Below are positions 36,084-60,286 of a stretch of DNA of 64,000 nucleotides, one piece after another (within the stretch, counting starts at the first letter, position 1; each line of letters opens with the position of its first letter). The translations under genes and the position numbers were made by a program. The notes under the pieces were generated by a model that saw only the letters and a list, made by a program, of their open reading frames with translations, did not search any database and was not told the DNA's origin. The stretch is from Pararhizobium capsulatum DSM 1112 (GTDB lineage: Bacteria > Pseudomonadota > Alphaproteobacteria > Rhizobiales > Rhizobiaceae), in contig NZ_JAUSVF010000006.1 in NCBI RefSeq assembly GCF_030814475.1, forward strand, positions 60,232 to 124,231. Reading direction: 5' to 3'.

Positions 36084-36102
36084 AAGGTATGGTCGATACC
36101 TT
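36084..36102. promoter_or_regulatory. inverted repeat upstream of epoxide hydrolase copy 1
   Basis: AAGGTAT-GGTCG-ATACCTT: perfect 7-bp arms with a 5-bp spacer, 77-95 bp before the start codon. The same repeat with a different spacer is upstream of epoxide hydrolase copy 2 (44718) and again at 59939. It has the form of a dimeric regulator site. Confidence 0.6.
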
Positions 36103-36194
36103 TGTATTGGACAGCGTTTTATCGCAGCCATAATCGATCGCGGCGGTCTCGCACGTCATCTCGAGACGGCAGCCGGCATGCGGGGTGTGAACCA

Positions 36195-39100
36195 TCAAGC
36201 TGTAGCTGCTGCAAATCCTCTTTCCTCGGTCGAAGCCCTCGGCACGGAGAAGCTCATGGTGACGCCCGGACCGTCATTGGGCCGAGCCCACATCCTTCCA
36301 CCATGACTTTCGATAATGGAACGACAAACTGACAGCCCGATTCCCATGCCATCGTTCTTCGTGGTGTAGAACGCCTCGAAAATTCGCGAACCTTCATCTA
36401 AGTCGAAACCGACCCCGTTGTCGCTGACTGCGACACTCACTTGACCACCGTCGTCAATGCTAGTTCGAATCTCGACAAATCTCAGGCGATCTTTTACCCC
36501 GGAGACAGCATCTATGGCATTCCGGAGCAAGTTAATGATCACTTGCTGAAGTTGGACTCGGTCGCCGTTGATTGGAGGTAGGGCATGGGTGAAGGAGGTT
36601 CGTACAGAAACGCCGTTGCGCCTCTGATCTCCCTCCGATAGTGCGACCACCTCACTCACCGCATCGTTGATGTCAATGTCTTCAAACGCTATGATGCGCT
36701 TACTGAACAACGCCCTTAGCCTTGTGATGACTTCAGCAGCCCGGTTGCCATCCCTTATCGTTCGCCGCGCTGTCTCAAGGGCTGTTTCAATATCAGGTGG
36801 GTCCGCTGAGAGCATTCGCAGACACGTGCTTGCATTTGTAATGATACCTGAAAGGGGCTGGTTGACCTCATGCGCGATCGCCGCCGACATTTGCCCTAGA
36901 CTTAGGATACCGGTCAACCGTGCAAGTTCCGTGCGCAACTGATCGCGCGCTTCCTCCGTCAAGCGTCTTTGTGTCACATCCTGGATTGCCCCGAGGCACT
37001 CCCGTTGTCCGTTCTGGTGATGAATTACTTCGCCGATGACGCGAACGTGCTTTATATTGCCTTTTCGACCCACGACGCGGACCTCATACTCGGACTCCCC
37101 ATCGCCGTCGCGTACCGCACCGATTTTCTCGGCAAATAGAGCGGCGTCGTCCGGGTGGATCCGCTCACCTATTTGCTCGAATGTTACGACGTCATCCTTT
37201 TCAAATTCGAGTATTCGTAGCCATTCATCGGACAGTACAAGTTCATCTGTATTGATGTGCCAGGAGAAGGTTCCCGTACTGATTAGCCGCTGACCCGCGA
37301 CCAGCAGGGCCTGGCTTCGTCGAAGTTCATCTTCGGCCTTCTTGCGATCGTCAATGTCAGTCAGTAGCCCGTACCAGCGAACAATGTTGTCTTCGGCATC
37401 ACGAAGTGGCTGCCCGCGAACCTGGAACCAGCGAAAAACTCCGTCGTGGCGGCGGTAGCGGCTTTGGTAGTCGTAGGGCTCGCCGCTTTTGAGCGACCCC
37501 ATGAATTTGTCAACGTTGATTTGAACGTCGTCAGGATGGGTTATTCCATTCGTCGACCAGTCTTGCACCTCCTCCAGCGAAGTCCCGAAGTAGTCCAGAA
37601 GTTGTTGATTGCTGCCGTCAAGCGTTCCATCAGGTTGCGCGAGAATTATCATGCCCGGTACCATATTGACTATATGGCGGAATTCCCTCTCGCTGTTTGC
37701 CAACGCCACCTCGGCCTGCTTGCGATCCTCGATATCGTTTAAAAGGAAGTACCATCGCACCGCCACTCCATCGTGGTTCAACAGGGGACTTCCCCGAAGC
37801 TGGAACCAACGATACGCGCCGTCATTGCGGCGAAGCCTTTCTACTATCTCGTAAGATTGGCCAGAGGCGGCCGCCTCGGCGAACCTGGCCACGCCCCGGT
37901 CGCGATCTTCCGGATGTATTATGTTGTTGGTTTGCCATTTTTGGTGTTCATGAAAATCGTAGCCGAAATATCGCAAGGACTGGTCGTTCACGCTCTCCAC
38001 AGACCCGTCAGGTCGGAGCACAATGATCAGGCCGGGGATTGAATTGACGATCAACTGAAGCTCGGCTTGACTTGCGCGCAGCGCCGCGACGGCCCCCCGC
38101 TGGTCGTCGATATCGGTCAAGAGGCCGTACCAGCGAGCAATTTCCCCGTCACTACCCCGTACCGGATGGCCGCGGATTTGGAACCAGCGGTAAACACCAT
38201 CGTGGCGACGGAATCGGGTTTCAAATTCGTAAGGATCACCTGTTTGAAGCGAGCTTGTGAAGGTCTCGACACAATGTTGCAGATCCTCAGGGTGGGTCAT
38301 CCCGTTAGTAGTCCAGTTCGCGACTTCCTCAAGGGGCTGCTGGAAGTAGTCGAGAAGCCGTTGGTTGCCGCCGTTCAACTTGCCGTCGGGCGTGAAGAGC
38401 GCGACCATCCCCGCTATGGTGCCGACGATCAAGCGAGCTTCCCGTTCGCTGTCCGCCAGCGCAACCTCGGTACGCTTCCGGTCATGGATGTCGATCAGCA
38501 GATGGAGCCAGCGCTGTATGTTGCCAGCTGCATCTCGCAGGGGAAGACCTAGGACATTGTGCCACCGATACACGCCATCCGCGCGCAGATGCCGGCTTTC
38601 GACGTTGTACGAGTTGCCGGCCATGTGAGCGGCGAGCTGAGCCTCGACAGTCTCCTTCAGATCGTCTGGATGGACCACCTCTGACGCCTTCCACTGCTTC
38701 AGTTCCGAGAGGCTGAGTCCAAAATAAGATAGTGTGAGTTGGTTCAGTCCCTCCACCTCACCGGTCGGAGTCGTCACGGCAACGGGCAGGGGAATGCTGT
38801 CGACGACGAGCTGGAAGTCTAGTGCGGCACGTGGCTGCTCCCGCTCCCGAACGACAAATTCAATATCGGTCGCGATGCCGCACCACTTCTCAATGGTGCC
38901 CGACACGCTTCGCAACGGGGTCCACTGGACGACAAAATGTCGAAAGTCGCCGACGTTGTTTCTAAGGCGCACCTCGATGGGCTCGGTCGTCTCTGCGGCG
39001 CGAACGCTTTGCAGATGCACGGTGAGCGCACCTAGGTCGGCTGGGTGCACTGCATCGAGCCAGTTCCAAGTTTGGCGCGACGTGAGGTGAAATCCAGTGT

Positions 39101-39203
39101 ATTCTTCCCAGCTACGATTGACGAACTCTACTTGGTCGTCCGCTCGCACAGTCAAAACTATGCTCGGCAGCGAGCCGAAGAACTGGTCGACATCAATCTC
39201 CAT
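36195..39203 (-). CDS. histidine kinase with six PAS domains
   Basis: A cytoplasmic sensor of about 1002 aa without membrane segments. Six PAS/PAC units follow one another (about residues 1-125, 130-250, 255-375, 380-500, 505-625, 630-755), several ending in the PAC motif RWYGLLTDIDDRK. Then comes the HisKA part with AIAHEVNQPLSGI (phospho-histidine about residue 790) and the ATPase domain with LQQVIINLLRNAIDA (N box), DNGVGFD and GMGIGLSV. The HEVNQPL type resembles FixL-like kinases that pair with single receivers. ATG 39203 is preferred to GTG 39209. The response regulator gene ends 160 bp upstream on the same strand, a likely partner. Confidence 0.9.
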   Translation of the reverse strand: MEIDVDQFFGSLPSIVLTVRADDQVEFVNRSWEEYTGFHLTSRQTWNWLDAVHPADLGALTVHLQSVRAAETTEPIEVRLRNNVGDFRHFVVQWTPLRSVSGTIEKWCGIATDIEFVVREREQPRAALDFQLVVDSIPLPVAVTTPTGEVEGLNQLTLSYFGLSLSELKQWKASEVVHPDDLKETVEAQLAAHMAGNSYNVESRHLRADGVYRWHNVLGLPLRDAAGNIQRWLHLLIDIHDRKRTEVALADSEREARLIVGTIAGMVALFTPDGKLNGGNQRLLDYFQQPLEEVANWTTNGMTHPEDLQHCVETFTSSLQTGDPYEFETRFRRHDGVYRWFQIRGHPVRGSDGEIARWYGLLTDIDDQRGAVAALRASQAELQLIVNSIPGLIIVLRPDGSVESVNDQSLRYFGYDFHEHQKWQTNNIIHPEDRDRGVARFAEAAASGQSYEIVERLRRNDGAYRWFQLRGSPLLNHDGVAVRWYFLLNDIEDRKQAEVALANSEREFRHIVNMVPGMIILAQPDGTLDGSNQQLLDYFGTSLEEVQDWSTNGITHPDDVQINVDKFMGSLKSGEPYDYQSRYRRHDGVFRWFQVRGQPLRDAEDNIVRWYGLLTDIDDRKKAEDELRRSQALLVAGQRLISTGTFSWHINTDELVLSDEWLRILEFEKDDVVTFEQIGERIHPDDAALFAEKIGAVRDGDGESEYEVRVVGRKGNIKHVRVIGEVIHHQNGQRECLGAIQDVTQRRLTEEARDQLRTELARLTGILSLGQMSAAIAHEVNQPLSGIITNASTCLRMLSADPPDIETALETARRTIRDGNRAAEVITRLRALFSKRIIAFEDIDINDAVSEVVALSEGDQRRNGVSVRTSFTHALPPINGDRVQLQQVIINLLRNAIDAVSGVKDRLRFVEIRTSIDDGGQVSVAVSDNGVGFDLDEGSRIFEAFYTTKNDGMGIGLSVCRSIIESHGGRMWARPNDGPGVTMSFSVPRASTEERGFAAATA

Positions 39204-39364
39204 CGCCACCCCGAAGTTTATATTTTCGCGAAAGACTGTAGGATATTGCGTCGCACAGCGCTACTGGTTCGTAATCATCTTTTGAATGGTCGGATCTGCC
39301 CGGTTCCCGAACCGCTCCTTGAACATTCTTGAGATGCGGCGCGCAAAGGAAGGCTTTCTATTGC

Positions 39365-39739
39365 TCAGTCTATCAACGACGCGAGTCGCAATGCATCCTG
39401 AAGTTCGTCGTCACTGAAGGGCTTAAATAGGCACTCCGCTGCTCCGTCCCGCATCAACCCCGTTCTAACCTTTTGGTCCCGAATCGCCGTGATAAAAACG
39501 ATTGGAATCCGCCGTCCTCTTCGCGCTATTTCCTTCTGCAGCTCAGGTCCCGTCATGCCGGGCATTGCGACGTCGAGGATCATCCCATCGCTGGAACCTA
39601 ACGCGCTTGAATTCAAAAACGCCTCCGCAGAAGCGAATGCTTCCACGGATAGACCGAAAGTCCGCAGAAGGTCTGGGAGAGCCTCGCGTACGGATTCGTC
39701 GTCATCGACAACAGAGACGTGTTTTATGCGGATTGCCAT
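39365..39739 (-). CDS. single-domain response regulator (receiver only)
   Basis: A 124-aa receiver domain: acidic pocket VVDDDES, phospho-acceptor aspartate in MILDVAMPGMTG (about residue 57), threonine in VFITA and lysine in LFKPFSDDEL. There is no output domain, so it must signal through another protein or act as a phosphate sink. It is coupled to the kinase at 42396: ATGATG overlaps the kinase stop, and the second ATG (39739) has the better distance from GAGG. Very similar to the regulator at 60655. Confidence 0.9.
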   Translation of the reverse strand: MAIRIKHVSVVDDDESVREALPDLLRTFGLSVEAFASAEAFLNSSALGSSDGMILDVAMPGMTGPELQKEIARRGRRIPIVFITAIRDQKVRTGLMRDGAAECLFKPFSDDELQDALRLASLID

Positions 39740-42396
39740 CATTTCCTCATTGTGTCGTCGGTCTTTTCTAAGCCCGACATTCCTCCACTTTCCAAGTCCG
39801 ACCCTAGGGAGATCGGGACCGAAAATCCTATTGTGACACCGTGATGCTTGTTTCGCTCGGCCCACAGCCGGCCGTTGTGGTTTTTTATGATGGACTCACT
39901 TACCGAGAGTCCGATGCCCATGCCCTCGGGCTTCGTCGTATAGAATGCATCAAAAATCCGGTCACTCCCCTGCGGGCCAAACCCCACGCCCGAATCTTCG
40001 ATGGATAGCTTGATCTCGCCATTGTTTGAATCGGTCTTCAGCACAATTCGTCTGGGGCGGTCTCCGACAGCCAAAAGCGCCTCAATAGAGTTGCGGAGGA
40101 GGTTCATTACGACCTGTTGTAGCTGCACGCGAGCGCCCGTCATGCGAGGCAGATCGGTAGCGAAGTCGGTCGTCAAGATCACTTTTGAACTCTGCAGGTC
40201 GCTGGACATCAGGGCGATTACTTCGCCGGAGATCTCGTTTAGATCCACGTCTTCGACGCTCGGCGGTTTCCGGCTGAAGAGATCCCAAAGCCGCGATATT
40301 ACATCGGCGGCGCGGTTCGCGTCGCGGATCATGCGCCGCGCCGTGTCCTTTGCGACGTCGATGTTTGGAGGATCCGAGGTTAGAACGCGCAGGCATGTGC
40401 TTGCGTTGGTGACCAATCCTGCGAGCGGTTGGTTCACTTCGTGAGCGATGGATGCCGTCAGTACGCCCAGGCTTGTGACGCGTGTGACATAGGATAGATC
40501 GGACCGCGCCTGATTTAGCGCCTCTTCCGCCTTCCGGCTTTCGGTGATGTCCTGCACGGCGCCGATCAGTTCCGGATCGCCGTCCTTGTTCCTCTCACTG
40601 TGCGCGAGCACTCGAACATATTTTAGCGACTGGTCGGGGGTGTTCAGTAAGATTTCGTAGTCAAAGTCGCCGCGCCCTTCATTGGCCCTATCGATCACTT
40701 GCTGCACTGTCGACAAGCTTTCGGGGAGGAGCCGTGATAAGACCGTGCCGAGTGTCACCGGAGTGGCCGGATCAACTTCGAAAATGCGATAGGTCTCCGC
40801 CGACCATGTGACTTCATTGGTGCCGAGGTTCAGCAAAAAGCTTCCGGTCTTGCTGAGGCGCTGGGCGTCCGTTAAAAACGCCTCGTTGCGGCGAAGCTTT
40901 TCTTCCGCTCGCTTTCGGTCGTCGATATCTGTCAAAAGTCCGTACCAGCGGACAATCTCGCCCTCGGAAGTGCGCAGGGGAAGTCCTCTGAGCTGGAACC
41001 ATCTCCAAGTGCCGTCATGGCGTAAAAAGCGGGTCTCGTAGTCATACGGTTCTCCCGTGACCATTGATCCCATAAAGCTGTCGATGCACGTCTGCAGATC
41101 ATCTGGATGGGTAATTCCGTTGCTCGACCAGTCGTTTAGTTCGGACAGTGGACGCTCGAAATAATCGAGGATTTGGCGATTTCCGTCGATCAACTGTGCA
41201 TCGGGCGAAAAGATCGCAATCATTCCTGCAATGCCATCAACGATCAAGCGCGATTCGCGCTCACGCTCCGCCAGCGCTTGTTCGGCGCGCTTCCGGTCTT
41301 CAATGTCGATATTAGTTCCATACCATTTGGTGATCTTCCCATCATCGCCGAGTAGGGGGGTCGCACGAAATAAGAACCACCTATATTCGCCATCCGATCC
41401 ACGCATCCTTGCCTCGAAATCCGCAGGGTCGCCTGATACGAGACTGGTGTTCCAAGCTTTCTCCAGACGACCGGCATCCTGTGGGTGAAGGATGGCTGTC
41501 CAGGCGGAGCCCTCGGCCTGTTCAGCAGTGAAACCTGCATACTCAAGCCATCGCTCGTTCACGAAGTCGCAGTACCCGTCAGGTCGGCTAGTCCAAACGG
41601 CGAGCGGCATTCCATCGATGATTTTTCGGAGCTCCAATTCATTGGATTTTAGTGCATCCTCAGCTCGCCGCCGATCCTCGACATCAATGTGAAGGGCGTA
41701 CCATCGTGCGACGCCGCCCTTTTCGTTTTCCAGGGGGTAACCGATAATTTGGAACCAGCGGAACCTGCCGTCTGAACGCCGAAGCCGCACCTCGGCTTCG
41801 TAGGCTGTTCCCGTGCCGACCGCCAATTTCACTGCTTCCATCAACCGCGGGAGGTCATCAGGATGGACCACGTCGCTGCTGCCCCACTGGCGCAGTTCAT
41901 CGAGCGTCCTACCGTAGTATTGGAGGAGGTGGCCGTTGATCGTGTCTACGTTGCCGTTGGCATCGAGGACGCCGATGCCTGCGGGGATGCTTTCCAGGAT
42001 TGCGTGGGTTTCGCGGTTTATCGGTGGTAGTGTGTCTCTATGAGGAGCTTGCCACGCGTTGCCCGCACATTCAGAAGCGACGCCATACCACTTCACAACC
42101 CGATCATTCTCAACCAGCGGATTGCATTGAAGACGCAGGCCCTGAGATCCAGACTCAGAGTGCATGATCGGCAAGGTGAGTTCGAACGGCTCGCTTCCAG
42201 ACACAAGCGAGTTCCAGCGTTGTATCAGGGCTCGCGTGTCTGCCGACGAGGCGGCAATCGGCCAACTCGTGGCCGGTTCGGAAAGGCCAAGAAACTCGAC
42301 CATGCCCTTGTTCATGAAAGCGATGCTGCCGCTGGGGACGGCAGTAAACACCATTCCCGGTATTGTTTCCAGAACCCGAACGAGTTCCACGTCCAT
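39739..42396 (-). CDS. histidine kinase with five PAS domains
   Basis: A soluble sensor of 885 aa. Five PAS/PAC units precede the kinase (about residues 1-110, 125-240, 250-365, 370-490, 495-625; PAC ends such as RWYGLLTDIDDRKRAEE). The HisKA motif is SIAHEVNQPLAGL and the ATPase domain has LQQVVMNLLRNSIEA, DSGVGFG and GMGIGLSV. ATG 42396 follows AAGGGAAA; the longer frame to 42489 lacks signals. It overlaps the receiver gene, so the two form a two-component pair. The ligand or redox signal cannot be told from the sequence. Confidence 0.9.
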   Translation of the reverse strand: MDVELVRVLETIPGMVFTAVPSGSIAFMNKGMVEFLGLSEPATSWPIAASSADTRALIQRWNSLVSGSEPFELTLPIMHSESGSQGLRLQCNPLVENDRVVKWYGVASECAGNAWQAPHRDTLPPINRETHAILESIPAGIGVLDANGNVDTINGHLLQYYGRTLDELRQWGSSDVVHPDDLPRLMEAVKLAVGTGTAYEAEVRLRRSDGRFRWFQIIGYPLENEKGGVARWYALHIDVEDRRRAEDALKSNELELRKIIDGMPLAVWTSRPDGYCDFVNERWLEYAGFTAEQAEGSAWTAILHPQDAGRLEKAWNTSLVSGDPADFEARMRGSDGEYRWFLFRATPLLGDDGKITKWYGTNIDIEDRKRAEQALAERERESRLIVDGIAGMIAIFSPDAQLIDGNRQILDYFERPLSELNDWSSNGITHPDDLQTCIDSFMGSMVTGEPYDYETRFLRHDGTWRWFQLRGLPLRTSEGEIVRWYGLLTDIDDRKRAEEKLRRNEAFLTDAQRLSKTGSFLLNLGTNEVTWSAETYRIFEVDPATPVTLGTVLSRLLPESLSTVQQVIDRANEGRGDFDYEILLNTPDQSLKYVRVLAHSERNKDGDPELIGAVQDITESRKAEEALNQARSDLSYVTRVTSLGVLTASIAHEVNQPLAGLVTNASTCLRVLTSDPPNIDVAKDTARRMIRDANRAADVISRLWDLFSRKPPSVEDVDLNEISGEVIALMSSDLQSSKVILTTDFATDLPRMTGARVQLQQVVMNLLRNSIEALLAVGDRPRRIVLKTDSNNGEIKLSIEDSGVGFGPQGSDRIFDAFYTTKPEGMGIGLSVSESIIKNHNGRLWAERNKHHGVTIGFSVPISLGSDLESGGMSGLEKTDDTMRK

Positions 42397-42459
42397 AGTT
42401 TCCCTTTCGCAGACTCCCCAAGGGGCATCCTGAGATTTAAGGAACTTCCCGTATATTAT

Positions 42460-42472
42460 CCAATGGTATTGG
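42460..42472. promoter_or_regulatory. inverted repeat upstream of the five-PAS kinase
   Basis: CCAAT-GGT-ATTGG, perfect 5-bp arms, 64 bp before the start codon. It resembles the palindrome at 29274 and could be an operator. Confidence 0.4.
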
Positions 42473-42522
42473 GTGGGTCTTGTCACCAATGTGAAGGGAG
42501 GGGCAAACGCGTCAACTGACCG

Positions 42523-43191
42523 TCAGGTTGGAAGTCTTCCGCCTGACTGTTCCGCAGTAAGGTACTCCGCATACCAGTCTGGCCAATTCTCATCATGGTT
42601 TCCGCCGGTTCGTTTTTCATGCTCTCCATGAGCTGCGGCGACGCGTCGAAGTGCGCTGGCGAGATCTCGCATTGAAGCGAATGTCACACCGTTCTGATCG
42701 ATCCGTCCCGGCAGTCTAGTCGTCACTTCCTGAAGGAGCCACCCATTTCCGTCCGGATCGCTGAACGAAGCGAACGACCCATAGCTCGTGCGCGATGGAT
42801 GGGGACCGGCCAGCCTGCCTTCGGTGCCTCCACGGTGAAAGAGACCACCTGAGTCATGGAAAACCCCGCTAATTTCGGCGCCTCGCGAGCCAAGCGCCGC
42901 ATGAGCCAGGTCGATATCGGACACGATGAGATGAAGTCCCTGTGCCGAACCGGGTTCCGCGACAGTGACCTTTGAACCAAAAATCACCGAGCAGTGGGAT
43001 CCTGGCGGGGTCACCTGCACGACTCGAAAGCCGTCCTGTCCGGGAACGTCCGCGTCCAACCGCCATCCCAACCCTGTGTAGAAGGACTTGGCGCGATCCA
43101 CATCGGATACGGGAATGACCACGACTTCAAGCTTCGTGTCGATTTCGTGCAACGAATTGGCGGTTCGTCTTACTGGCTCTTGAAAGGTCAT
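42523..43191 (-). CDS. glyoxalase/bleomycin-resistance (VOC) family protein
   Basis: A 222-aa protein. Residues about 18-150 are a VOC domain: KLEVVVIPVSDVDRAKSFYTGLGWRLDAD, then GLHLIVSDIDLAHAAL and FSDPDGNGWLLQEV, with metal-ligand positions at the usual strands. The C-terminal 55 residues (FASMRDLASALRRVAAAHGEHEKRTGGNHDENWPDWYAEYL) are an extra helical part seen in some rhizobial members. Reaction unknown. GGAG lies just before ATG 43191. It is divergent from the LysR gene, a possible regulator. Confidence 0.85.
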   Translation of the reverse strand: MTFQEPVRRTANSLHEIDTKLEVVVIPVSDVDRAKSFYTGLGWRLDADVPGQDGFRVVQVTPPGSHCSVIFGSKVTVAEPGSAQGLHLIVSDIDLAHAALGSRGAEISGVFHDSGGLFHRGGTEGRLAGPHPSRTSYGSFASFSDPDGNGWLLQEVTTRLPGRIDQNGVTFASMRDLASALRRVAAAHGEHEKRTGGNHDENWPDWYAEYLTAEQSGGRLPT

Positions 43192-43483
43192 CGGGCTCTC
43201 CTTCGCTCAAATTCGTCCGGCTGTCACTGCGGCAAGGCAACGGTGCCCTGTGGTCAGACAAGTGTCCATTGTGCAAAGGTATCGCTTCGCTTTTGGGGAT
43301 ACGATTATGCAATTGCACCCTACAGAGTGAGCGGTCTGTTCCGCCGCGCCCGTTGGAGACGCTGCGGGGCGGTGGCGTCGCGGTCGTCTGCCTCCCTGCA
43401 TATTGGTCTCGGTCGCAACCTCAATGTTCTATTGCGCCATGTCCAATGCTGTGAAGATATTCGCGCAGCATAAGGAGTGGATG

Positions 43484-44416
43484 ATGGATCGTATCGATGC
43501 AATGAAAGTCTTCGTCACAGCCGTCGAGGAAGGTAGCCTCGCCGGCGCAGCGCGCAGGCTGAAACGGTCACCCACGGCGATCAGCCGAGCCCTCGGCCTG
43601 CTTGAGCAGCATGTTGGCGTCGAACTGCTCCACCGGACAACCCGGAGTCTGAAGCTAAGTGAAGCAGGGCAGCGGTATGTCGGAGCATGCCGGAGAGTGC
43701 TCATCGATCTGGAGGAGGCCGACATGATCGCCGGTTCCGAACAATCGTCTCCTAAAGGGACGCTGACGATCTCAGCACCACCCATTTTGGGCGAAGAGGT
43801 GCTGCGGCCGATCCTCGACAGCTTCCTCCGCGAGCATGCCAACGTCTCCGTGCGGCTACTGATGCTAGATCGCTTCGTTAATCTGGTGGACGAGGGCGTC
43901 GACGTCGCCCTTCGCATTGGCAATCTTACGGACTCGACGCACATCTCCATGCGTATAGGCGGCGATGTGCGCCGCGTCGTGGTAGCTGCGCCGCAGTATC
44001 TCGAACATCACTCTGCAATTAACGAGCCTTCGGATCTTTCTCGACACGATCTCATCGCCTTCTCGAATTTCGGTTTGGAATCTTGGAGCTTTGCACCTGT
44101 CAAAGATGCCTCCATTCCTCGAACCGTCCATTTTTCGCCTAGGTATCTCGTCAATAGCGTGCGCGCTGCCGCGGCTTCGGCCGCAGAGGGGATGGGCGTG
44201 ACCAGATTGTATTCCTATCACGTGGCTAATTATGTTCGCGATGGTCGCTTGAAGATCGTCCTTTCGCACGCGGAGCCACCTGCTCTGCCCGTCCATATTC
44301 TCACACCTCACGGTCGTGCATCCGTTCCGAAGGTCCGGGCATTCATAGACTTTGCAGTTCCGCGTCTTCGATCCGAACTTGGTCGCATAGCTGCGGAGGC
44401 GGGTACTCTAATCTGA
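43484..44416 (+). CDS. LysR-family transcriptional regulator
   Basis: A 310-aa regulator. Residues 1-60 are the LysR winged helix (MKVFVTAVEEGSLAGAARRLKRSPTAISRALGLLEQHVGVELLHRTTRSLKLSEAG). The rest is the inducer-binding domain (GTLTISAPPILGEEVLRPILDSFL). ATG 43484 has AAGGAG 6 nt upstream. It lies between divergent genes, so it may control the VOC gene and the epoxide hydrolase at 44808, in whose upstream regions AGGTAT half sites occur (43275 and 44718). Inducer unknown. Confidence 0.9.
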   Translation: MDRIDAMKVFVTAVEEGSLAGAARRLKRSPTAISRALGLLEQHVGVELLHRTTRSLKLSEAGQRYVGACRRVLIDLEEADMIAGSEQSSPKGTLTISAPPILGEEVLRPILDSFLREHANVSVRLLMLDRFVNLVDEGVDVALRIGNLTDSTHISMRIGGDVRRVVVAAPQYLEHHSAINEPSDLSRHDLIAFSNFGLESWSFAPVKDASIPRTVHFSPRYLVNSVRAAAASAAEGMGVTRLYSYHVANYVRDGRLKIVLSHAEPPALPVHILTPHGRASVPKVRAFIDFAVPRLRSELGRIAAEAGTLI

Positions 44417-44807
44417 CTATCCCGAAGTGCGGTTGAGTGAATGCCGAAAAATGACAATTCTCACTTCTGCCGAAGACGTCTAACCAAAGGGACAGGCGCT
44501 TCGGAGATAGGCGTCGGACGTGACTACGATCTCAGGCTTCATGTCGAAATGACTGCGGTATGCAGGCGTCGGCGTTTTGCAGTCGTGGGTAGTCGTTTCC
44601 GATATCTTTTTTTGTATGAGCCCGGGCAACCCGCCACGTTCGGACGATCATCCGTTGTGTACGTTGCCGTGCATCGTACGAAGTATCGCATCGTCAGCAA
44701 GCGGCTCACCAATCCATAGGTATCGCCAATACCTTCGGACAATAGCGTCGCGGCCGTTGCCGGACGACCCTTCGACATCCCAACCACCTCATTTAACGGA
44801 GGATGTC
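44417..44807. other. intergenic region with a possible VOC gene relic
   Basis: No intact gene. On the minus strand near 44490-44545 a short stretch (MKPEIVVTSDAYL) resembles the start of the neighbouring VOC protein (KLEVVVIPVSD), maybe a decayed duplicate. The right part holds the inverted repeat at 44718. Confidence 0.35.
44718..44734. promoter_or_regulatory. inverted repeat upstream of epoxide hydrolase copy 2
   Basis: AGGTAT-CGCCA-ATACCT, perfect 6-bp arms with a 5-bp spacer, about 75-90 bp before the start codon at 44808, the same position as the repeat at 36084 relative to copy 1. Confidence 0.6.
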
Positions 44808-46094
44808 ATGTCAGCAGAAGTTGAAACGAGACCAGCACTTTCGCCAACAAGGCGCGAGTTGGTTGCAGCCACCGTGGCAACCGCCGCCCTCAGCATTCTC
44901 CCCAAGCTCGTCAGAGCGGCGACGGGAGGCGATGCAATCCGTCCGTTCAAGTGCGCGATCCCGCAGAAGGAGGTCGATGAGCTTCGACGACGCGTTCGAG
45001 CCACCCGGTGGCCCGGCAAGGAGACGGTTGCCGACCGCTCGCAAGGCGCTCAGCTTCAAAAGCTGAAACCGCTCGTCGAGTACTGGGGCAGGGAATATGA
45101 CTGGAGGAGGGGAGAGAAGAAGCTGAATGCGCACGCGCAGTTTCTGACCCGGATCGATGGTCTCGACATCCATTTCATTCATGTGAAATCCAAGCATGAA
45201 GGCGCCCTACCGCTGATCATGACTCATGGTTGGCCGGGGTCGGTGCTTGAGCTCGTCAAAACGATCGGACCGCTCACTGATCCGACCGCACATGGCGGTT
45301 CCGCCGATGACGCGTTTCACGTCGTCATCCCGTCAATGCCGGGCTACGGGTTTTCTGAAGTTCCAAGCGAGGTGGGGTGGGGGCCGGACCGCATCGGCCG
45401 GGCCTGGCACGCCCCGATGAAACGGCTCGGCTACGGCCGCTATGTCGCGCAGGGCGGTGACTGGGGCGCCGTCGTATCCGACAAGATGGCGGCTCAGGCG
45501 CCCGATGGTCTGCTTGGCATTCATACGAACATGCCGGCGACTGTTCCTCCGGAGATCGCGAGGGCGCTTGCCGACGGCGAACCTGCTCCGGCGGGACTTT
45601 CTGCGGACGAGAGGGCCGCCTACGAGCAGATGAACGCACTCTATACCAAGGGCGCTGGCTATGCGTTGATGATGGTCACAAGGCCTCAGACTCTTGGGTA
45701 TGCGTTGACGGACTCGCCCGTGGGTCTTGCCGCTTGGTACTACGACAAATTCGCTGACTGGACATACAGCGGAGGCGATCCGGAGATGTCCCTGACCAAG
45801 GACGAGATGCTCGACGACATCTCCCTGTACTGGTTCACGGGAACAGCCACTTCCGGGGCACGCCTCTACTGGGAAAACAACGCCAACAACTTCAACGCCG
45901 TCGACATCAAGATTCCCGCGGCGATCACCGTGTTCCCCGGCGAGATCTATCAGGCGCCCAGGAGCTGGGCCGAGAAGGCCTACCACAACCTCGTCTACTA
46001 CAACAAAGTCGACAAGGGCGGCCACTTCGCCGCGTGGGAACAGCCGGACCTCTTCACATCCGAACTGCGGGCGGCATTCAGGACGCTACGCTAA
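44808..46094 (+). CDS. epoxide hydrolase, alpha/beta fold, Tat-exported (copy 2)
   Basis: A 428-aa protein with a twin-arginine signal (SPTRRELVAATVATAALSIL). The EHN domain starts at IRPFKCAIPQKEVDELRRRVRATRWPG. The hydrolase core has MTHGWPGS, the nucleophile aspartate in VAQGGDWGA and the histidine in KGGHFAAWEQP. GGAGG precedes ATG 44808; the in-frame extension to 44577 is rejected. It heads a run of closely spaced plus-strand genes (SDR, PLP enzyme, FMN reductase) that probably form one operon acting on the same substrate family. Confidence 0.92.
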   Translation: MSAEVETRPALSPTRRELVAATVATAALSILPKLVRAATGGDAIRPFKCAIPQKEVDELRRRVRATRWPGKETVADRSQGAQLQKLKPLVEYWGREYDWRRGEKKLNAHAQFLTRIDGLDIHFIHVKSKHEGALPLIMTHGWPGSVLELVKTIGPLTDPTAHGGSADDAFHVVIPSMPGYGFSEVPSEVGWGPDRIGRAWHAPMKRLGYGRYVAQGGDWGAVVSDKMAAQAPDGLLGIHTNMPATVPPEIARALADGEPAPAGLSADERAAYEQMNALYTKGAGYALMMVTRPQTLGYALTDSPVGLAAWYYDKFADWTYSGGDPEMSLTKDEMLDDISLYWFTGTATSGARLYWENNANNFNAVDIKIPAAITVFPGEIYQAPRSWAEKAYHNLVYYNKVDKGGHFAAWEQPDLFTSELRAAFRTLR

Positions 46095-46131: not shown

Positions 46132-46941
46132 ATGACGAACTTTCCTAAGGGCACGGCCCTCATCACCGGCGCTTCGTCCGGCATCGGAGCACTCTACGCA
46201 GACAAGCTGGCGCGACGCGGCTACGACCTCATACTCGTTGCGAGAAGCCAGGATTCGCTAACAAGGGTGGCGAAGGACATCGCGCAAGCGACGGGTCGCA
46301 TCGTGAAAACCGTTCGGGCGGATCTCGGCGAAAGAGACGACCTGTTGAAGGTCGAGGGAATCCTTCGCAGCGACTCGTCGATCACGATGCTGGTTAACAA
46401 TGCCGGCGTCGGAGCGGTCGAGCCTCTTTTGATGTCCGACGTCGAGGCGATGGAGCGAATGATCAAGTTGAACGTCACGGCCCTGACCCGTCTCGTATAT
46501 GCCGTCGCGCCCTCGTTCGTAGCACGCGAGCACGGCACGATCGTCAACATGGCGTCGGCACTGGGCATCGCGCCCGAGATCCTGAACGGCGTCTACGGCG
46601 CTACAAAGGCGTTCGTCATCGCCTTGACGTTCTCTCTACAGAAAGAGCTGGCAGAAAAGAACATTCGCATCCAAGCCGTGCTTCCAGGGGCCGTTGAGAC
46701 CCCGTTCTGGGAAGCGTCCGGCGGGTCTCTCGCTCGCTTGCCGGATCAGATCGTCATGAAGGCGGAGGATGCGGTCGAGGCGGCGCTCGCCGGTCTCGAC
46801 ATGGGCGAGCTAATTACACTTCCTTCCGTACCCGACATTGATGACTGGAACGCTTACGAAGCGGCACGGCAGAAGCTGATGCCGAATCTATCACGCAATG
46901 CCCCAGCGCCTAGGTATCGAACCGCGGCGCTGGCATCTTGA
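46132..46941 (+). CDS. short-chain dehydrogenase/reductase
   Basis: A 269-aa SDR: cofactor motif TGASSGIG (about residues 13-20), NNAG (about 88-91), catalytic serine in MASALG and YxxxK in YGATKAF (about 156-160). It is 37 bp behind the epoxide hydrolase gene with AAGGA before its ATG, and its stop overlaps the next start. It would oxidise or reduce an alcohol/carbonyl, possibly the diol formed by the hydrolase; that link is inference. Confidence 0.9.
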   Translation: MTNFPKGTALITGASSGIGALYADKLARRGYDLILVARSQDSLTRVAKDIAQATGRIVKTVRADLGERDDLLKVEGILRSDSSITMLVNNAGVGAVEPLLMSDVEAMERMIKLNVTALTRLVYAVAPSFVAREHGTIVNMASALGIAPEILNGVYGATKAFVIALTFSLQKELAEKNIRIQAVLPGAVETPFWEASGGSLARLPDQIVMKAEDAVEAALAGLDMGELITLPSVPDIDDWNAYEAARQKLMPNLSRNAPAPRYRTAALAS

Positions 46942-48008: not shown

Positions 48009-48056
48009 CCCCCGGCAAGGGGGCCGCCAACAGTCACCAACCCAATGAGGACAATC

Positions 48057-51075: not shown

Positions 51076-51094
51076 GATGCTCTCCTTCGACGGT

Positions 51095-52758: not shown

Positions 52759-53229
52759 CTAGGGTTCGATCTCGAGGACGAGTTCGATTTCGACAGGCAT
52801 TCCAAGCGGAATACTGGAAACGCCAAGAACGATTCGGGGGGCGAGACGGTCAGGGCCAAAAATCGACAGCAGCAATTCAGACGCACCATCTGCGACCTTG
52901 GGGTGCTCAAGGAAGTCAACTGGTGCGGCGATATAGACGCCGAGCTTTACGATCGTCCGAATGCTATTCAGCGAGCCCAAGTGTGAACGTGCTGCAGCCA
53001 AGCCGCTCAAGCATGCTGCACGGGCGGCGTCGTACCCTTCGGCCACGGAGAGGTCGCGACCAACCAGTCCAGTGCAAAGAGGTACATGGTCGACCACCGG
53101 TAACATGCCACTTAGGAATAGCAGCGTTCCGCTCTGCACGGCCTCGACGTACGCGCCGAATGGCGTCGGCGGCGACGGAAGGGTGATCGCCAGCTCCGCT
53201 AGGCGTGTCTCCGCGTTCAGGGCTACCAT
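52759..53229 (-). CDS. RidA/YjgF family protein
   Basis: A 156-aa protein of the Rid superfamily: GTLLFLSGMLPVVD at the first strands, ARAACLSGLAAARSHLGSLNSIRTIVKLGVYIAAP, and a C-terminal VEIELVLEIEP containing the usual final strand and glutamate. Rid proteins hydrolyse reactive enamine/imine intermediates released by PLP enzymes; this member has an insert compared with RidA and lacks an obvious arginine in the usual site. Its ATG overlaps the stop of the SDR gene, and the next gene follows closely. Confidence 0.82.
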   Translation of the reverse strand: MVALNAETRLAELAITLPSPPTPFGAYVEAVQSGTLLFLSGMLPVVDHVPLCTGLVGRDLSVAEGYDAARAACLSGLAAARSHLGSLNSIRTIVKLGVYIAAPVDFLEHPKVADGASELLLSIFGPDRLAPRIVLGVSSIPLGMPVEIELVLEIEP

Positions 53230-53948
53230 TTTCCCAGATGCGCCCCGTTGTCAACATGGAGCACCTCCCCAGTAATATTGGAGGACTCGGTCAGATACAC
53301 GACGCCGTCCACAATCTCTTGCACGGCGGTGATCGTGCCCATCGGTGACAATGTCTTCAGAAAATCCTTCGGGTTCTTCGCATGGAGAGGAGTGTCGACG
53401 ACGCCAGGCGAGACCGCGTTCACCCTGATGTTGTCCGCGGCGAACTCTAGCGCCAAGCTCTTTGTGATGGCGTTGAGGCCGCCCTTTGTGATCATTGGGA
53501 CGGATGCAGTAACTTGCTTGATCGGGTGATCCGTCAGGGAGGATGTAATTGTCACTATACTGCCGCCGGACCTCTGTCGAAGCATTTGCTGGATGGCGTG
53601 CTTGGTAAAGTGGATGAATCCTTCCACGTTCGTTGCGGACAGCCGCCGGAAGTCGTCCACTGTGTACTCGAGGAAAGGCTTCGTGACGAAAATTCCGGCG
53701 TTGTTTACGAGCGCGTCGACCGATCCAAACTGTTCGAGGGCCCGCTGGGTGACACGTTCTGCCGTATCCGGATCTGCGACGTCTCCGTCGATCAACTCAA
53801 TTCTACGCGCACGGTTGAACAGGCTGGTTTCAGTGATGCGTCTGGAAGTGCCTACTACGTTCCACCCTTTATCGAGAAAGGACTTCACGAGTCCGGCGCC
53901 AATACCCTGTGAAGCCCCAGTGATCACTACTGTCTTGTGCACGCTCAT
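53223..53948 (-). CDS. short-chain dehydrogenase/reductase
   Basis: A 241-aa SDR: TGASQGIGAG (about residues 10-18), NNAGIF, catalytic serine in ITSSLTD, and the proton-relay lysine in ITKGGLNAITKS where methionine-isoleucine stand in place of the normal tyrosine neighbourhood (PMITKGGL instead of YxxxK), so the catalytic tyrosine appears missing. It may be inactive as a normal oxidoreductase. GGAGG precedes ATG 53948. First gene of the minus-strand run with RidA and the exported crotonase. Confidence 0.83.
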   Translation of the reverse strand: MSVHKTVVITGASQGIGAGLVKSFLDKGWNVVGTSRRITETSLFNRARRIELIDGDVADPDTAERVTQRALEQFGSVDALVNNAGIFVTKPFLEYTVDDFRRLSATNVEGFIHFTKHAIQQMLRQRSGGSIVTITSSLTDHPIKQVTASVPMITKGGLNAITKSLALEFAADNIRVNAVSPGVVDTPLHAKNPKDFLKTLSPMGTITAVQEIVDGVVYLTESSNITGEVLHVDNGAHLGKW

Positions 53949-54235
53949 CCTAGAAACCTCCGTTGCAAAGCCGAGGCACGCCACCGAATCCTAGGCAGCG
54001 CCCTTATCGTTCGCGAACTCTTTGAAGCCGATCGTCGACCGGGGAGCGGTGGCCATGTTTTCCCGACCGCTCTGAGGGGAACTTGGCGCCAATTGGCAGG
54101 ACCACGCTATTGTACGATGGTGTCCCCGATACTTTAGGCGCACTCCGGAAACGCTAGGACACCATGGTCCAATAGACCCCTCCGAGGGCCAGCGATAAGA
54201 CGTTTGGACAAGCTTCAAGATATCAGGAGACGTCA

Positions 54236-55324
54236 ATGACGCGTTGGACCGACCGCCGCATACTTGACCTTTTTGGCATCGAATTGCCGATTGTCCAGGC
54301 ACCGATGGCAGGCGCGACAACAGTCGACATGGTTGTCGCAGCATCGAATGCCGGGGGTCTCGGATCTTTGCCCAGCGCCCAGCTAAGCGTCGAGCAGCTC
54401 CGAGATGCTTTGCATCTGATTAGGACCGCTACGTATAAACCGATAAACGTGAACTTCTTCTCGCACGTACCCCCCCACGATGACGCAGCCGTGCAGCTTC
54501 GCTGGCGGGCAATACTCGCCCCTTACTTCTTCGAAATGGGACTAGATCCTTCCACTCCGACGTCTGGAAGGGCGCGCGCGCCGTTCGACGAATTATTTTG
54601 CGAGGTTGTCGAGGAGTTCAAACCGAATGTGGTGAGCTTCCACTTCGGCCTCCCTGAGATTTCGCTCGTTAATCGAGTCAAGGCGACCGGCGCAAAGGTC
54701 ATTTCGTCAGCAACCACTGTCGAGGAAGCGTTGTGGCTTGAGGTCAACGGCGTCGACGCAATTATCGCCATGGGATTTGAGGCCGGAGGTCACCGCGGCA
54801 ATTTTCTGATGGATGACATGTCCACGCAGGTCGGCACAATGGCACTGGTTCCACAGATCGTCGATACAGTCAAAGTACCGGTCATAGCGGCAGGCGGGAT
54901 TTCGGATGGGCGCGGTATGGCAGCGGCACTAATGCTGGGTGCGTCGGCCGTTCAGATCGGCACCGCTTATCTCTTTTGCCCCGAGGCTAAGATCCCCGCG
55001 GTGCATGCGGCGGCGCTCGACAGCGCGGGAGACGACAGCACAGCCATCACCAATGTGTTTACCGGGCGGCCCGCTCGCGGCGTCATAAACCGCATTATGC
55101 GTGAACTCGGCCCAATTTCCAAAAGCGTACCGCCTTTTCCCACAGCCGCGGCTGCACTCGGAGCTATCCGGGCGAAAGCTGAAGCAAGCGGTCGTGATGA
55201 CTTCACCAACTTGTGGTCTGGGCAGGCGGCTCGACTGGCCGCGCGTCTACCGGCCGGAGAACTTACCAGGAGACTTCTCGACGAAGCGCTGGCGGTCTTG
55301 GACAACCGTACCGGCCGATCGTGA
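54236..55324 (+). CDS. nitronate monooxygenase (2-nitropropane dioxygenase family)
   Basis: A 362-aa TIM-barrel flavoprotein: PIVQAPMAGATTVDMV at the start, NVNFFSH, SFHFGLPE, the catalytic histidine in GFEAGGHRGNF (about residue 183), VIAAGGISDGRGMAAALMLGASAVQIGTAYL for FMN phosphate. It oxidises nitronates such as propionate 3-nitronate to safe products. AGGAG lies 7 nt before the ATG. It is divergent from the SDR/RidA/crotonase run and followed by an MFS gene. Confidence 0.92.
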   Translation: MTRWTDRRILDLFGIELPIVQAPMAGATTVDMVVAASNAGGLGSLPSAQLSVEQLRDALHLIRTATYKPINVNFFSHVPPHDDAAVQLRWRAILAPYFFEMGLDPSTPTSGRARAPFDELFCEVVEEFKPNVVSFHFGLPEISLVNRVKATGAKVISSATTVEEALWLEVNGVDAIIAMGFEAGGHRGNFLMDDMSTQVGTMALVPQIVDTVKVPVIAAGGISDGRGMAAALMLGASAVQIGTAYLFCPEAKIPAVHAAALDSAGDDSTAITNVFTGRPARGVINRIMRELGPISKSVPPFPTAAAALGAIRAKAEASGRDDFTNLWSGQAARLAARLPAGELTRRLLDEALAVLDNRTGRS

Positions 55325-55481
55325 ATACCTACATTTGGCGGCGCACAGTCGTCCTAAAAGTTGGCATACTGGATCGATCCCACGCTTTCCATATCAGTGG
55401 CAGGGACTTGGCGATGTTTGCCTGATTGAGGTTTCCGGCGTCACGGGCAGCCGCGCTGTTGTCCGAACTTGAGGTTCACGG

Positions 55482-56687: not shown

Positions 56688-56699
56688 TGCAGGTCTAAG

Positions 56700-58253
56700 C
56701 TTGACTTTGTACAAAATCCCTTTGGAGTTTCAGGTTTGCGGCGGCGGCGCTGATCTTCTGCGCACTGGTAGCGTTGCGCGCGCGGCAATCTCATTTTGAG
56801 GCATTTTGAGCGGGGTGAATCAATTCGCCGCAGTCTCCCCTGACTTGCCTGTTTCGCGTGACCGGATTCGAACCGGTGGTTAACCGATCATAATGAGAAC
56901 TGCGTCGGGTCGGGTGATCCTGTTCAGCACATCCTTCGCCAGTGGCTGTCGTCGTTTCCCCTGGTTCACGGCACCCAGTTGGGAGCATCTGCTATCCTGG
57001 TGATGGGCGCGATCCTGTCTCCAGGCAAACGAACAGTGACGTCCTGTTTGCGGATCACCGGCCGCGCCGAGGCTGGCAATTTTTCCCTCTACCATCAACT
57101 CCTTAATCGCGCGCGTTGGAACCCACGCACGCTGGCTTCGCGGCTGCTATCGGTCGTTGTCGTCAGCCTCGTACTCGACAGGCCCACTGTGATCGGCATG
57201 GATGACACCATCGAACGCCGCTGGGGACCAAAGATTGCCGCCCGTGGCTTTTATCGAGATCCGGTGCGCTCCAGCACGGACACTTCGTCAAAGCTAGCGG
57301 TTTGCGCTAGTTGAGCTTCATGGTTCTTGCCCCGGTCCCATGGGCCAAACGCATCAATGCCGAACCGGTCTTGACGCTTTTAGTCCCCTCGGAGCGCTAC
57401 AATAAAAAAAGGGACGAAGGCACAAACTGCTGACGGATTGGGCAAGACAGGGTGTGATGCAGCTTTGCCGCTGGCTGCCTGGACGCGATCTCATCTATGT
57501 TGGCGCCAGCAGTTTTGCTATCCACACATTGGCTGCAGCACTGCCCGACAGGGCTACCCTCATCACACGCCTGCGTCTGGACGCCAGTCTGTTAGCCCCG
57601 CCAGATCCGCGATATGAACACATGCTAAGGCGGCCCGCACAAAAAGGTATGCCCTTACCCAAGCTGAAGGCAGTACTCAACAATCCCAAGACCGTCTGGC
57701 AACGCGTCATCGCGTCAACCTGGTATGGCAGGCAAACCGATAAACACCTTGATATCACGACAGGCACTGGCTTGTGGTATCGGCGGGAACCCCGCCAAGG
57801 CCAAATCGCTGGGTCCTGGTTCGAGACCCGACTGGCCGCCGCAAACCGCAGGCGTTTATGAGCACCAATACCGAGCTTGAGCCGACCCAGATCATCGCCT
57901 ACTTCGTGCGGCGCTGGTAGATCGAAGTGACGTTCGCCGAAACACCCGCCCATCTTGGTGTGGAGACCCAGCGCCAATGGAATGGCAACGCCATCATCCG
58001 CACGACACCTTCACTCTTGGCTATATACAGTCTCGTGACAGCCTGAGCCAAAGCACGCCCCCTCACGCGGCGGCATGGTATAAAAAACCGATCTGATATT
58101 CACCGATGCGATCGGTGCTGTGCGTCTCGTTTTGTGGAGGGACGATCTTTATCGACACTCACCGTCAAACCCAGAAATGCACAAAATACCTCCCGGACCT
58201 CTTATCCGAATGGTACAGTCCCTTTGCTTCGCCGCATAATGTATAAAGTCGAG
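56700..58253 (+). mobile_element. degraded copy of the IS701-like element
   Basis: Left end CTTGACTTTGTACA and right end TGTATAAAGTCGAG each differ by one base from those of the intact copy at 30228. The flanks CTAAG (56695-56699) and CTAAC (58254-58258) look like an old target duplication with one change. The length is 1554 bp against 1575 bp. It lies between the MFS gene and the broken reductase. Confidence 0.85.
56881..58238 (+). pseudogene. transposase of the degraded IS
   Basis: Matches the intact transposase over its length but the ATG is lost, and there are at least three frameshifts (near 57290, 57400 and 57800) and in-frame stops, for example the TAG that replaces a codon in RRW-IEVTFAET near 57918. 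It cannot be active; mobilisation by the intact copy would require its altered ends to be recognised. Confidence 0.88.
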
Positions 58254-58277
58254 CTAACAGACTGACTCGAAAAGAAA

Positions 58278-59143: not shown

Positions 59144-59177
59144 GTTCGGATCCTTGCCTAGCGGGGCGGCGCTAGTT

Positions 59178-59600
59178 TCAGACAAGCGTAAATGTGACCC
59201 CAATGTTCCCGTGCGTCGCCTTCGAGTAAGGGCAGATCTGATGTGCCTCATCGACGAGCTGCTGCGCGGCTTCGCGATCGACGCCAGGGATACCAACTGC
59301 GAAGCGAGCTGTCAGCGAATAGCCGCTCGTCGGGGAGAGATTGAGGTCCACCTCCGCATCGATGGTCACTTCACCGGCGAGCTTGATGTGCTTCTGTTTG
59401 ACAAGAATGCCAATGGCACTCTCGAAGCATGCCGACCATCCGGCGGCGAAGAGTTGCTCGGGGTTCGTGCCAGGTTTGGCGGTACCGGGAACGCCAAGCT
59501 TCAGGTCGAGCTGACCATCTGAACTGCGCGCGATGCCCTGCTCGCGACCGCCGCTGACGTGTGTCTTTGCCGTGTAGAGGACTTTCGACTGCTGATCCAT
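59178..59600 (-). CDS. organic hydroperoxide resistance protein (Ohr/OsmC family)
   Basis: A 140-aa thiol peroxidase with both catalytic cysteines: GWSACFESAI (about residue 58) and HQICPYSKAT (about 122). The N-terminal VLYTAKTHVSGGREG-like strand and LGVPGTAKPGTNPEQLFAAG with the catalytic arginine region also fit Ohr. It reduces organic and lipid hydroperoxides. AAGGAG is 6 nt before ATG 59600. The broken reductase was originally the next gene in its operon. Confidence 0.92.
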   Translation of the reverse strand: MDQQSKVLYTAKTHVSGGREQGIARSSDGQLDLKLGVPGTAKPGTNPEQLFAAGWSACFESAIGILVKQKHIKLAGEVTIDAEVDLNLSPTSGYSLTARFAVGIPGVDREAAQQLVDEAHQICPYSKATHGNIGVTFTLV

Positions 59601-59675
59601 TGTACGCTCCTTGGGTGCTGGATAGGGACAGGCGCCCGGCGCGCATCGCCGGGTCGGCTTGCTGATGGGAGGGGT

Positions 59676-59870
59676 CTATTCGGCGGCGAGGCGATCGCGA
59701 CAACCGACGAGATCGCCTTCAGGATCTCGTCGGTTGTCACGATCGCGCTGGCATAGCTGGGGTGGGTTTACCTCCAGCGCCGCATCCATCATTTCCGGCG
59801 AGTAGTCGGCGACCGCGTCCTTAACGATCGTCACGTCGTAGCCAAGCTCAGCGGCGTAGCGGACCGTGGA
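59676..59870 (-). pseudogene. 3' fragment of an isochorismatase-family gene
   Basis: TVRYAAELGYDVTIVKDAVADYSPEMMDAALEVN matches the end of the intact protein at 50440, then a one-base frameshift near 59773 leads to SYASAIVTTDEILKAISSVVAIA. The first two thirds of the gene are absent. The fragment starts exactly where a duplicated promoter segment ends (59871). Confidence 0.75.
59699..59738. repeat. 16-bp perfect inverted repeat
   Basis: GACAACCGACGAGATC and its exact complement flank an 8-nt loop. It lies within the isochorismatase fragment, in the part that encodes TTDEILKAISSVV. A terminator-like hairpin without T-run; probably a by-product of coding sequence or of rearrangement. Confidence 0.6.
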
Positions 59871-60286
59871 CCCTTGCGTGTTTGCCTTGCTTTACGAGAA
59901 GGAAGATCACATCAAACGAACCCAACAACTATTGCACCAAGGTATGGTCGATACTTTGGTATCGGACCATTGCCAAGGCTTCATTGCGAGGCACACCGTA
60001 GCAGTTCAACGATGGCTCGGAGGGTGCGATGTCGGTCGTGATGTTCGTCTTAAAGCTTTCGGTGTCGCCTTCGCTACGAAGTTTCGCTGCCATATTACCC
60101 AGTTCAGGGAGGGACTGGGGATTCATCATCCGTATTACATGACCCGCTGGGCGAGACACCACATTTCAATGCCTTGACGGTCATTGGAACGTCTCCAAAG
60201 CCGGAGACGAATATGATCGGCATCGGTGTGAGAGCTAACGACATTGCCCGCCGGCCATGGGCGAAATTCGCATACCTATGTCCGCG
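59871..60286. other. duplicated promoter segment and no intact gene
   Basis: Positions 59871-59965 closely match 36012-36110, the leader and operator of epoxide hydrolase copy 1, in the same orientation. The remainder up to the response regulator stop has no supported gene. Confidence 0.6.
59939..59957. promoter_or_regulatory. orphan copy of the epoxide-hydrolase inverted repeat
   Basis: AAGGTAT-GGTCG-ATACTTT, identical to the repeat at 36084 except for one base, followed at once by a further GGTATCGG half site. No epoxide hydrolase gene follows; the leader runs into the isochorismatase fragment. Confidence 0.6.

Follow-up and report, generated by a model that had tools for sequence, protein, structure and literature searches.

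A directional operator shared by epoxide hydrolase and oxidoreductase genes on a Pararhizobium plasmid contig, and its probable StyR/FixJ-type response regulator

INTRODUCTION

Which protein reads the inverted repeat AAGGTAT-N5-ATACCTT that stands upstream of two epoxide hydrolase genes of Pararhizobium capsulatum DSM 1112, and which genes does it bring under common control? The repeat lies in a 64,000-nucleotide stretch of the plasmid contig NZ_JAUSVF010000006.1 (positions 60,232 to 124,231, here called the window; positions are counted from its first letter unless prefixed C6, our name for the contig). An initial annotation, made from the sequence alone, had placed the repeat upstream of both hydrolases and at an orphan promoter, and had proposed one regulator for a dispersed electrophile-response regulon, with a nearby LysR-family protein and TetR proteins as candidates. 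Comparison with related genomes leads us to a different candidate. The shared repeat is probably the core of a set of operators bound by the phosphorylated form of a StyR/FixJ-type response regulator that is encoded on the same plasmid contig.

RESULTS

Copies of the inverted repeat

The repeat is found without mismatch at 36084-36102 (AAGGTATGGTCGATACCTT), and with one mismatch each at 44717-44735 (TAGGTATCGCCAATACCTT) and 59939-59957 (AAGGTATGGTCGATACTTT); all three copies first reported are thus present. The first two precede genes for epoxide hydrolases of the EHN plus alpha/beta hydrolase type (Pfam PF06441), which we call EH1 (34703-36007, minus strand, start taken from the translation) and EH2 (44808-46094, plus strand). 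The gap from repeat to start codon is 76 bp for EH1 (ATG 36007) and 72 bp for EH2 (ATG 44808), near the ∼75-95 bp originally given for both. A fourth copy had been overlooked. It lies at 54117-54135 (ATGGTGTCCCCGATACTTT), has three mismatches and a score of 15/18, and is placed between the divergent genes for the oxidoreductase SDR2 (53223-53984, minus strand, assigned by Pfam, start codon uncertain), the first of a SDR2-RidA-ECH gene row, and a nitronate-monooxygenase-family protein, NMO (54236-55324, plus strand, PF03060).

With up to three mismatches allowed the window contains seven matches; 100 shuffled versions gave a mean of 0.85, and none of them contained seven. A scan of the 6,477,857-base genome, which the initial annotation had proposed, finds sites with at most one mismatch in three places, all inside the window. 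At two mismatches there are six further matches in the genome, and since the resulting total of nine hardly exceeds the eight obtained with a backwards control these are uninformative. The bare palindrome was dropped as a genome-wide probe for this reason, and a looser form, AGGTRTN5AYACCT, was dropped with 21 matches against 16 in the control. As palindrome probes were barely above their controls, a directional core was used instead. Among 199 genomes of the family the strict palindrome matches in four, including G161 and G165.

A directional operator

When the promoters are aligned, conservation extends past the palindrome and is directional, with ATACCTT-N4-CAATRG or close variants on the side of the controlled gene. 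The palindrome thus forms the middle of a larger directional operator, with CAATRG at the end turned toward the gene under its control. The directional core AYACCWTNGNNCAATRG is present at 29271, 36074 (EH1), 43266 (VOC), 44729 (EH2), 54107 (SDR2), 54159 (NMO) and 59929 (the third copy of the repeat), seven times in the window and in none of 100 shuffles, a count that is partly circular as the core was defined after viewing the window and its relatives. Three guards were set against this circularity: the backwards control, a position weight matrix (PWM) trained without the window and C6, and the test on 199 genomes. The whole genome holds eight cores, every one of them on C6, which makes up 1.9% of the genome. 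Across genomes the core search returned 48 matches, against 10 for the backwards control (counted by hand).

At EH1, EH2, VOC and NMO the directional box, ACCWTNG-NN-CAATRG, precedes the start codon by 60-74 bp. The EH1 box (ATACCTTGGTGCAATAG, 36074-36090, minus strand) points at EH1 and has a PWM score of 36.5 with the window left out of training, and the EH2 box (ATACCTTCGGACAATAG, 44729-44745, plus strand) points at EH2 with a score of 36.8. Between the divergent genes, one box points at SDR2 (54107-54123, minus strand, 36.1) and another at NMO (54159-54175, plus strand, 16.1). The half sites noted earlier near 43275, by the gene for a VOC/glyoxalase-fold protein (42523-43191, minus strand, PF00903), turn out to be a full directional box pointing at VOC (ATACCTTTGCACAATGG, 43266-43282, minus strand, 19.4), but there is no palindrome at this place (best score 11/18). 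Two near-palindromic boxes (29214-29287, minus strand) lie upstream of ECH2 (28316-29125, with an ECH_1 domain); their direction is ambiguous, the exact core at 29271 being on the plus strand. In all, seven window sites reach a PWM score of at least 13, with a matrix whose training set includes orthologous promoters; on random background a score of 14 is reached once in 2 Mb of each strand, and a score of 16 never.

A mirror-image half adjoins the box at EH1, EH2, SDR2/NMO and in many relatives, and both halves together make up the palindrome AAGGTRTCG-N-CGAYACCTT. The commonest letters around 27 distinct cores from more distant stretches read approximately CCGATRCC-AAAGTRTYG-S-CGAYACCATCGTNCAATRGATTTG, where the core letters are fixed by the search pattern and only the flanking letters are a finding. 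The palindrome is therefore kept in weaker form in these stretches.

Conservation in relatives

The cluster region is syntenic, with rearrangements, on plasmids of Rhizobium and Sinorhizobium, and seven records cover at least 80% of a 6.3-kb query. For 77 loci with relatives of EH2, and for 12 stretches of plasmid that surround the cluster, the 220 bp upstream of each gene were scored against AAGGTRTCG-N-CGAYACCTT over 18 positions, and a site was called at a score of at least 15. Rows were kept at a bit score of at least 120 if the match began no later than residue 20 and was preceded by 150 bp of upstream sequence; PALP rows were not counted. Sites were found before 15/15 EH1, 23/30 EH2, 14/15 NMO and 22/25 VOC rows, and before 13/23 SDR2-like, 4/27 SDR and 6/24 LysR rows. 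None were found before FMN reductase (0/23), isochorismatase (0/18), ECH (0/13), RidA (0/14) or MFS (0/8). Shuffled upstream regions had a mean of ∼10.5, with maxima mostly of 11-14 and once of 16.

By this measure operators are conserved before the orthologs of EH2, EH1, NMO and VOC. The EH2 rows divide by identity, with a site in 23/23 of those at 84% or above and in 0/7 of those at 78% or below. The four SDR rows with a site are the loci where EH2 does not precede SDR. EH2 apparently heads an operon with SDR (46132-46941), a PLP-dependent enzyme (to 48008) and an NADPH-dependent FMN reductase (48045-48650), all on the plus strand and assigned by Pfam, in an order that is the same in relatives. 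The VOC row of the window itself scores 11/18, having kept the box and not the palindrome, in contrast to the 22 VOC rows that have it.

A response regulator that accompanies the box

On C6, some 51 kb before the window start, there is a gene for a StyR/FixJ-type response regulator (C6:8276-8986, minus strand), with a PF00072 receiver and a PF00196 LuxR-type (GerE) DNA-binding domain. In the 199 family genomes, where at most 14 first-look candidates were scored per genome, this regulator is found at E≤1e-60 in six. The core is present in 6/6 of these against 17/193 of the others, at least two cores in 5/6 against 2/193, and at least three in 4/6 against 0/193. The association persists when the own genome is removed. 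No other relative of the regulator was found at E≤1e-55 above 56% in 26 genomes of the genus. Of the 16 genomes or plasmid records with operators that were searched, 11 have relatives of 63-76%. Among 16 genomes chosen for their operators, of which G241 qualified only via PWM or two-mismatch sites, the regulator is found at E≤1e-60 in 14 (57-96% identity), and LysR at E≤1e-70 in nine.

The genes for the closer regulators carry the box themselves. Twelve matches have at least 63% identity; in 11 of these an exact core is located shortly upstream of the regulator's own gene, often within a divergent pair, and in the twelfth there is a core with one mismatch. The recognition helix reads TVKAHRG in the clade with operators and TVK[LVI]H in paralogs. 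For these Leu, Val or Ile paralogs the 320 bp of upstream sequence contain no box. A PWM site is found within 1.5 kb of 29/42 KAH regulators and of 0/25 others, where the rows are related and part of the 29 were in the PWM training. On the regulator tree two changes of helix label are needed, one of them apparently from the long-branch fragment L188_45.

In Mesorhizobium ciceri (L250) a single gene row contains a PAS protein, a receiver, the response regulator, a large kinase and an epoxide hydrolase, with strong sites at 16386, which precedes the hydrolase gene, and at 6370. The species had at first looked like an exception. In stretches from 11 distant box-bearing genomes the commonest shared families of open reading frames are the epoxide hydrolase (10/11, by selection), receivers including the response regulator (9/11) and PAS kinases (8/11); families were annotated in part, and some of the reading frames are antisense. 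In the full set of 17 box-bearing genomes or plasmids, which includes these 11, LysR is not among the families present in at least five. The window itself contains two multi-PAS histidine kinases (36195-39209 and 39739-42489) and a CheY-like receiver (39365-39736), all on the minus strand and assigned by Pfam, as candidate signalling partners, and members of both families are met again in the distant stretches that bear boxes.

The boxes, their conservation and orientation, their restriction to C6 and their co-occurrence with the response regulator all emerge from comparison of sequences. The idea of one shared regulator for dispersed genes is thereby well supported, but not with the LysR protein that had been put forward; the StyR/FixJ-type regulator co-occurs better.

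A number of observations weigh against assigning the boxes to this regulator. Two whole genomes with operators, G226 (L020) and G230 (L019), have no such regulator at E≤1e-60; in L019 it is truncated to its first 94 residues. At 63% identity or above it is missing from 5/16 operator-bearing genomes or plasmids (the same two and plasmids W04, W05 and W06), where W05 and W06 carry a diverged regulator (L110 and L111) with the same KAHRG helix. The box of the C6 regulator's own gene has two mismatches. More distant KAH regulators (55-65% identity, e.g. L072, L079, L219, L223 and L238) are without a box in the 320 bp upstream, no PWM site lies within 1.5 kb of 13/42 KAH regulators, and in G232, where a KAH regulator is present, two stretches (L044 and L187) show no site. 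In locus-level counts LysR (12/18) is associated with the core at least as closely as the response regulator (9/18), so that the two are not separated. Finally, regulator and box may occur together because the cluster is inherited as a block; the 199-genome test covered the response regulator. We put our confidence in the response regulator no higher than probable because of this possibility of block inheritance, and because autoregulation is limited to the closer regulators.

LysR and other candidates

The strongest competitor is the LysR-family regulator encoded between VOC and EH2 (43484-44416, plus strand, Pfam), which might bind the palindrome and control the cluster, alone or jointly with the response regulator. 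It is linked in most of the fetched Rhizobium and Sinorhizobium clusters at 79-96% identity, an ortholog of at least 72% is present in all six of the searched whole genomes that carry the regulon, its locus-level association with the core is 12/18 against 1/59, and the palindrome is found upstream of LysR in 6/24 rows. Four of these six rows (L012, L014, L015 and L024) face a divergent EH1, however, and in them CAATRG points away from LysR and at EH1. No LysR ortholog was found at E≤1e-70 in seven of the 16 box-bearing genomes, namely G073, G147, Variovorax G236 and G237, Caballeronia G241, and two metagenome-assembled genomes that may be incomplete or misbinned (G239, Burkholderiales; G240, Candidatus Eremiobacterota). 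Conversely, G103 has a 72% ortholog and yet no box core. LysR sites usually have a symmetric T-N11-A spacing, which the palindrome does not. Eight unlinked LysR orthologs (72-77%) have no palindrome in their 3.9-kb stretches, and seven of them share another upstream element, TTCGSGWGAATA, as read by eye. On these grounds LysR was set aside as the sole regulator, and binding of the palindrome by LysR in any form seems to us unlikely. It may well have a role of its own in the cluster.

The element TTCGSGWGAATA is shared by L131, L132, L133, L134, L159, L160 and L161, with TTTACT ahead of it in five by eye, and an SDR gene follows in five of the seven; possibly it is LysR's own site. In Ensifer sp. 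USDA 6670 (L023/L135) the linked LysR gene is fragmented and contains stop codons, while at another place in the genome a 74% ortholog has an open frame; the operators are still there.

Binding of the 19-bp palindrome by an unlinked TetR-like or other repressor is more doubtful still. The tet operator has a 9-1-9 shape, and the palindrome shares this shape and has near-perfect symmetry in many copies; CifR provides a precedent for the control of an epoxide hydrolase by such a protein. Yet conservation is directional and takes in CAATRG, which lies outside the palindrome, and a TetR-like operator was set aside on this ground. Moreover, VOC in the window and the promoters of the response regulators have the box without the palindrome, and no TetR-family gene appears in five annotated, incomplete cluster tables, no dedicated search having been made. 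That the sites are alike merely because the promoters are copies of one another, as the third clearly is, and that they have no function, we regard as very improbable, given that the same core precedes unrelated genes and is present in Variovorax, Burkholderiales and Eremiobacterota stretches, where most flanking positions hold little information.

The third copy and other features of the plasmid

The third copy of the repeat had been taken for an orphan promoter. The repeat is there, but the site is a degenerate copy of the EH1 promoter and not an independent promoter of known use. Positions 59893-59967 are 81% identical to 36038-36112, in the EH1 promoter. The relic (59872-59967, minus strand) contains the palindrome (59939-59957) and the box (59929-59945), and ends at the ribosome-binding region, where by alignment it directly abuts a frameshifted 3′ fragment of an isochorismatase gene (59711-59869, minus strand). 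On a plasmid of Rhizobium sp. BG6 (L113), EH1, a 182-aa protein and isochorismatase follow one another in a single same-strand row, and the relic is therefore best read as an internal deletion of a copy of this operon. The next intact gene downstream is OsmC-like (59178-59600, minus strand, PF02566), and it is possible that this gene has become a captured target of the relic promoter. A simple scan found no terminator-like site between the two, and around the relic it yielded neither a sigma-70-type promoter nor a terminator.

A transposase element (DDE_5/DDE_Tnp_1) is present in two direct copies, at 30223-31804 and 56695-58255, which flank the 25-kb hydrolase-NMO cluster in the arrangement of a composite transposon; the first is one 460-aa open reading frame, and the second was seen as shorter frames only. 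The first 20 kb of the contig (L117, C6:1-20000) contain another set of paralogs (VOC, ECH, SDR, alpha/beta hydrolase, LLM oxidoreductase, molybdopterin oxidoreductase and kinases), with further palindromes at 5699, 12504 and 19337. Twin-arginine N-termini resembling Tat signals were seen by eye in EH1, EH2 and the alpha/beta hydrolase at L117:11332-12378, and these hydrolases may be exported. Elsewhere in the window, tandem repeats of ∼261-267 nt (19561-20443, minus strand) resemble by eye calcium-binding RTX-type repeats, and a duplication relates 18100-18778 to 23094-23783, in pieces that are 79-94% identical.

DISCUSSION

The mechanism that we propose begins with the PAS kinases, which would sense a compound or a redox change. 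The multi-PAS kinases would then phosphorylate the response regulator, perhaps with the CheY-like receiver as a relay, and the phosphorylated protein would bind the box and its mirrored neighbour as dimers. From a position at approximately −40 it would activate transcription, as StyR and CrbR do, of EH1, the EH2 operon, VOC, NMO and SDR2, and elsewhere on C6 of VOC2, an alpha/beta hydrolase and a SnoaL-like protein beside the regulator gene. Binding by this regulator, activation rather than repression, the pairing with kinases, and indeed every step beyond the boxes and their co-occurrence, are what we infer. The enzymes suggest the handling of epoxides, aldehydes or nitronates; the term electrophile response is a guess based on what these enzymes are called.

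The loose observation has become a testable regulon, for which a regulator gene and an exact operator can be named, along with the targets and a residue that may confer specificity. In root-nodule bacteria the regulator offers a handle for finding the signal that would trigger epoxide hydrolases, nitronate monooxygenases and VOC enzymes. The split between Ala and Leu/Val/Ile in the helix, set against the presence of the box, makes a clean case for how FixJ-type regulators select DNA. In the most general form of the proposal, which we offer tentatively and hold with less than even confidence, a travelling two-component module of multi-PAS kinase, CheY-like relay and StyR-type regulator with the TVKAH helix would control a xenobiotic regulon carried on a plasmid by means of a single composite operator of ∼37 bp, conserved in alpha- and betaproteobacteria and as far as a contig assigned by binning to Candidatus Eremiobacterota, and here a deletion would have put osmC behind a captured copy of the operator.

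How does this system compare with those already known? In the limited library that we searched, we found nothing on the operator strings or on such a regulon. In the CifR-cif system of Pseudomonas an epoxide hydrolase gene is likewise under dedicated control, but its regulator is a TetR repressor. The solved structures nearest to the C6 regulator are 1yio, named 'response regulatory protein', followed by FixJ (5xso). FixJ has a receiver and a LuxR-type domain like the C6 regulator; it differs in its recognition helix, TIEVY in the aligned chain, and it controls nitrogen fixation. The entry 1yio, which we take to be StyR of the StyS/StyR system of Pseudomonas fluorescens ST, is the nearest solved relative over both the receiver and the DNA-binding domains. 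StyR differs in controlling styrene oxidation, and in the alignment its helix is TVKVH in place of the TVKAH of the operator clade. According to the available part of its description, StyR activates from a site at about −40, and the several sites that it uses differ in affinity, the further ones being weaker (PMC2442086). RpuR of Sinorhizobium uses a direct repeat, as far as the accessible text describes it (PMC9100948), and no operator was found in the available part of the AcfR paper (PMC7945327).

The closest parallel for the DNA site is provided by the CrbS/CrbR (MxtR/ErdR) system of Pseudomonas, as portrayed in the available part of the published account (PMC5715377). At acs, where the start site is 34 bp ahead of the open reading frame, the LuxR-family response regulator CrbR depends on an imperfect repeat, TACTACCATCGTCGAAT, located at −52 to −36 (PMC5715377). 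This ACTU motif, TACTACCATCGTCGAAT, shares ACCATCGTC-AAT with the plasmid box, whereas the mirrored palindrome and the CAATRG end of the plasmid operator are not seen in the description of the CrbR motif in that part of the paper (PMC5715377). CrbS/CrbR further differs in controlling acetate use through a kinase with an SLC5 symporter domain. On the plasmid the targets are hydrolases and oxidoreductases, and the kinases by the cluster are PAS proteins. Both the match to ACCATCGTCCAAT and the similarity in distance suggest an operator of the CrbR kind.

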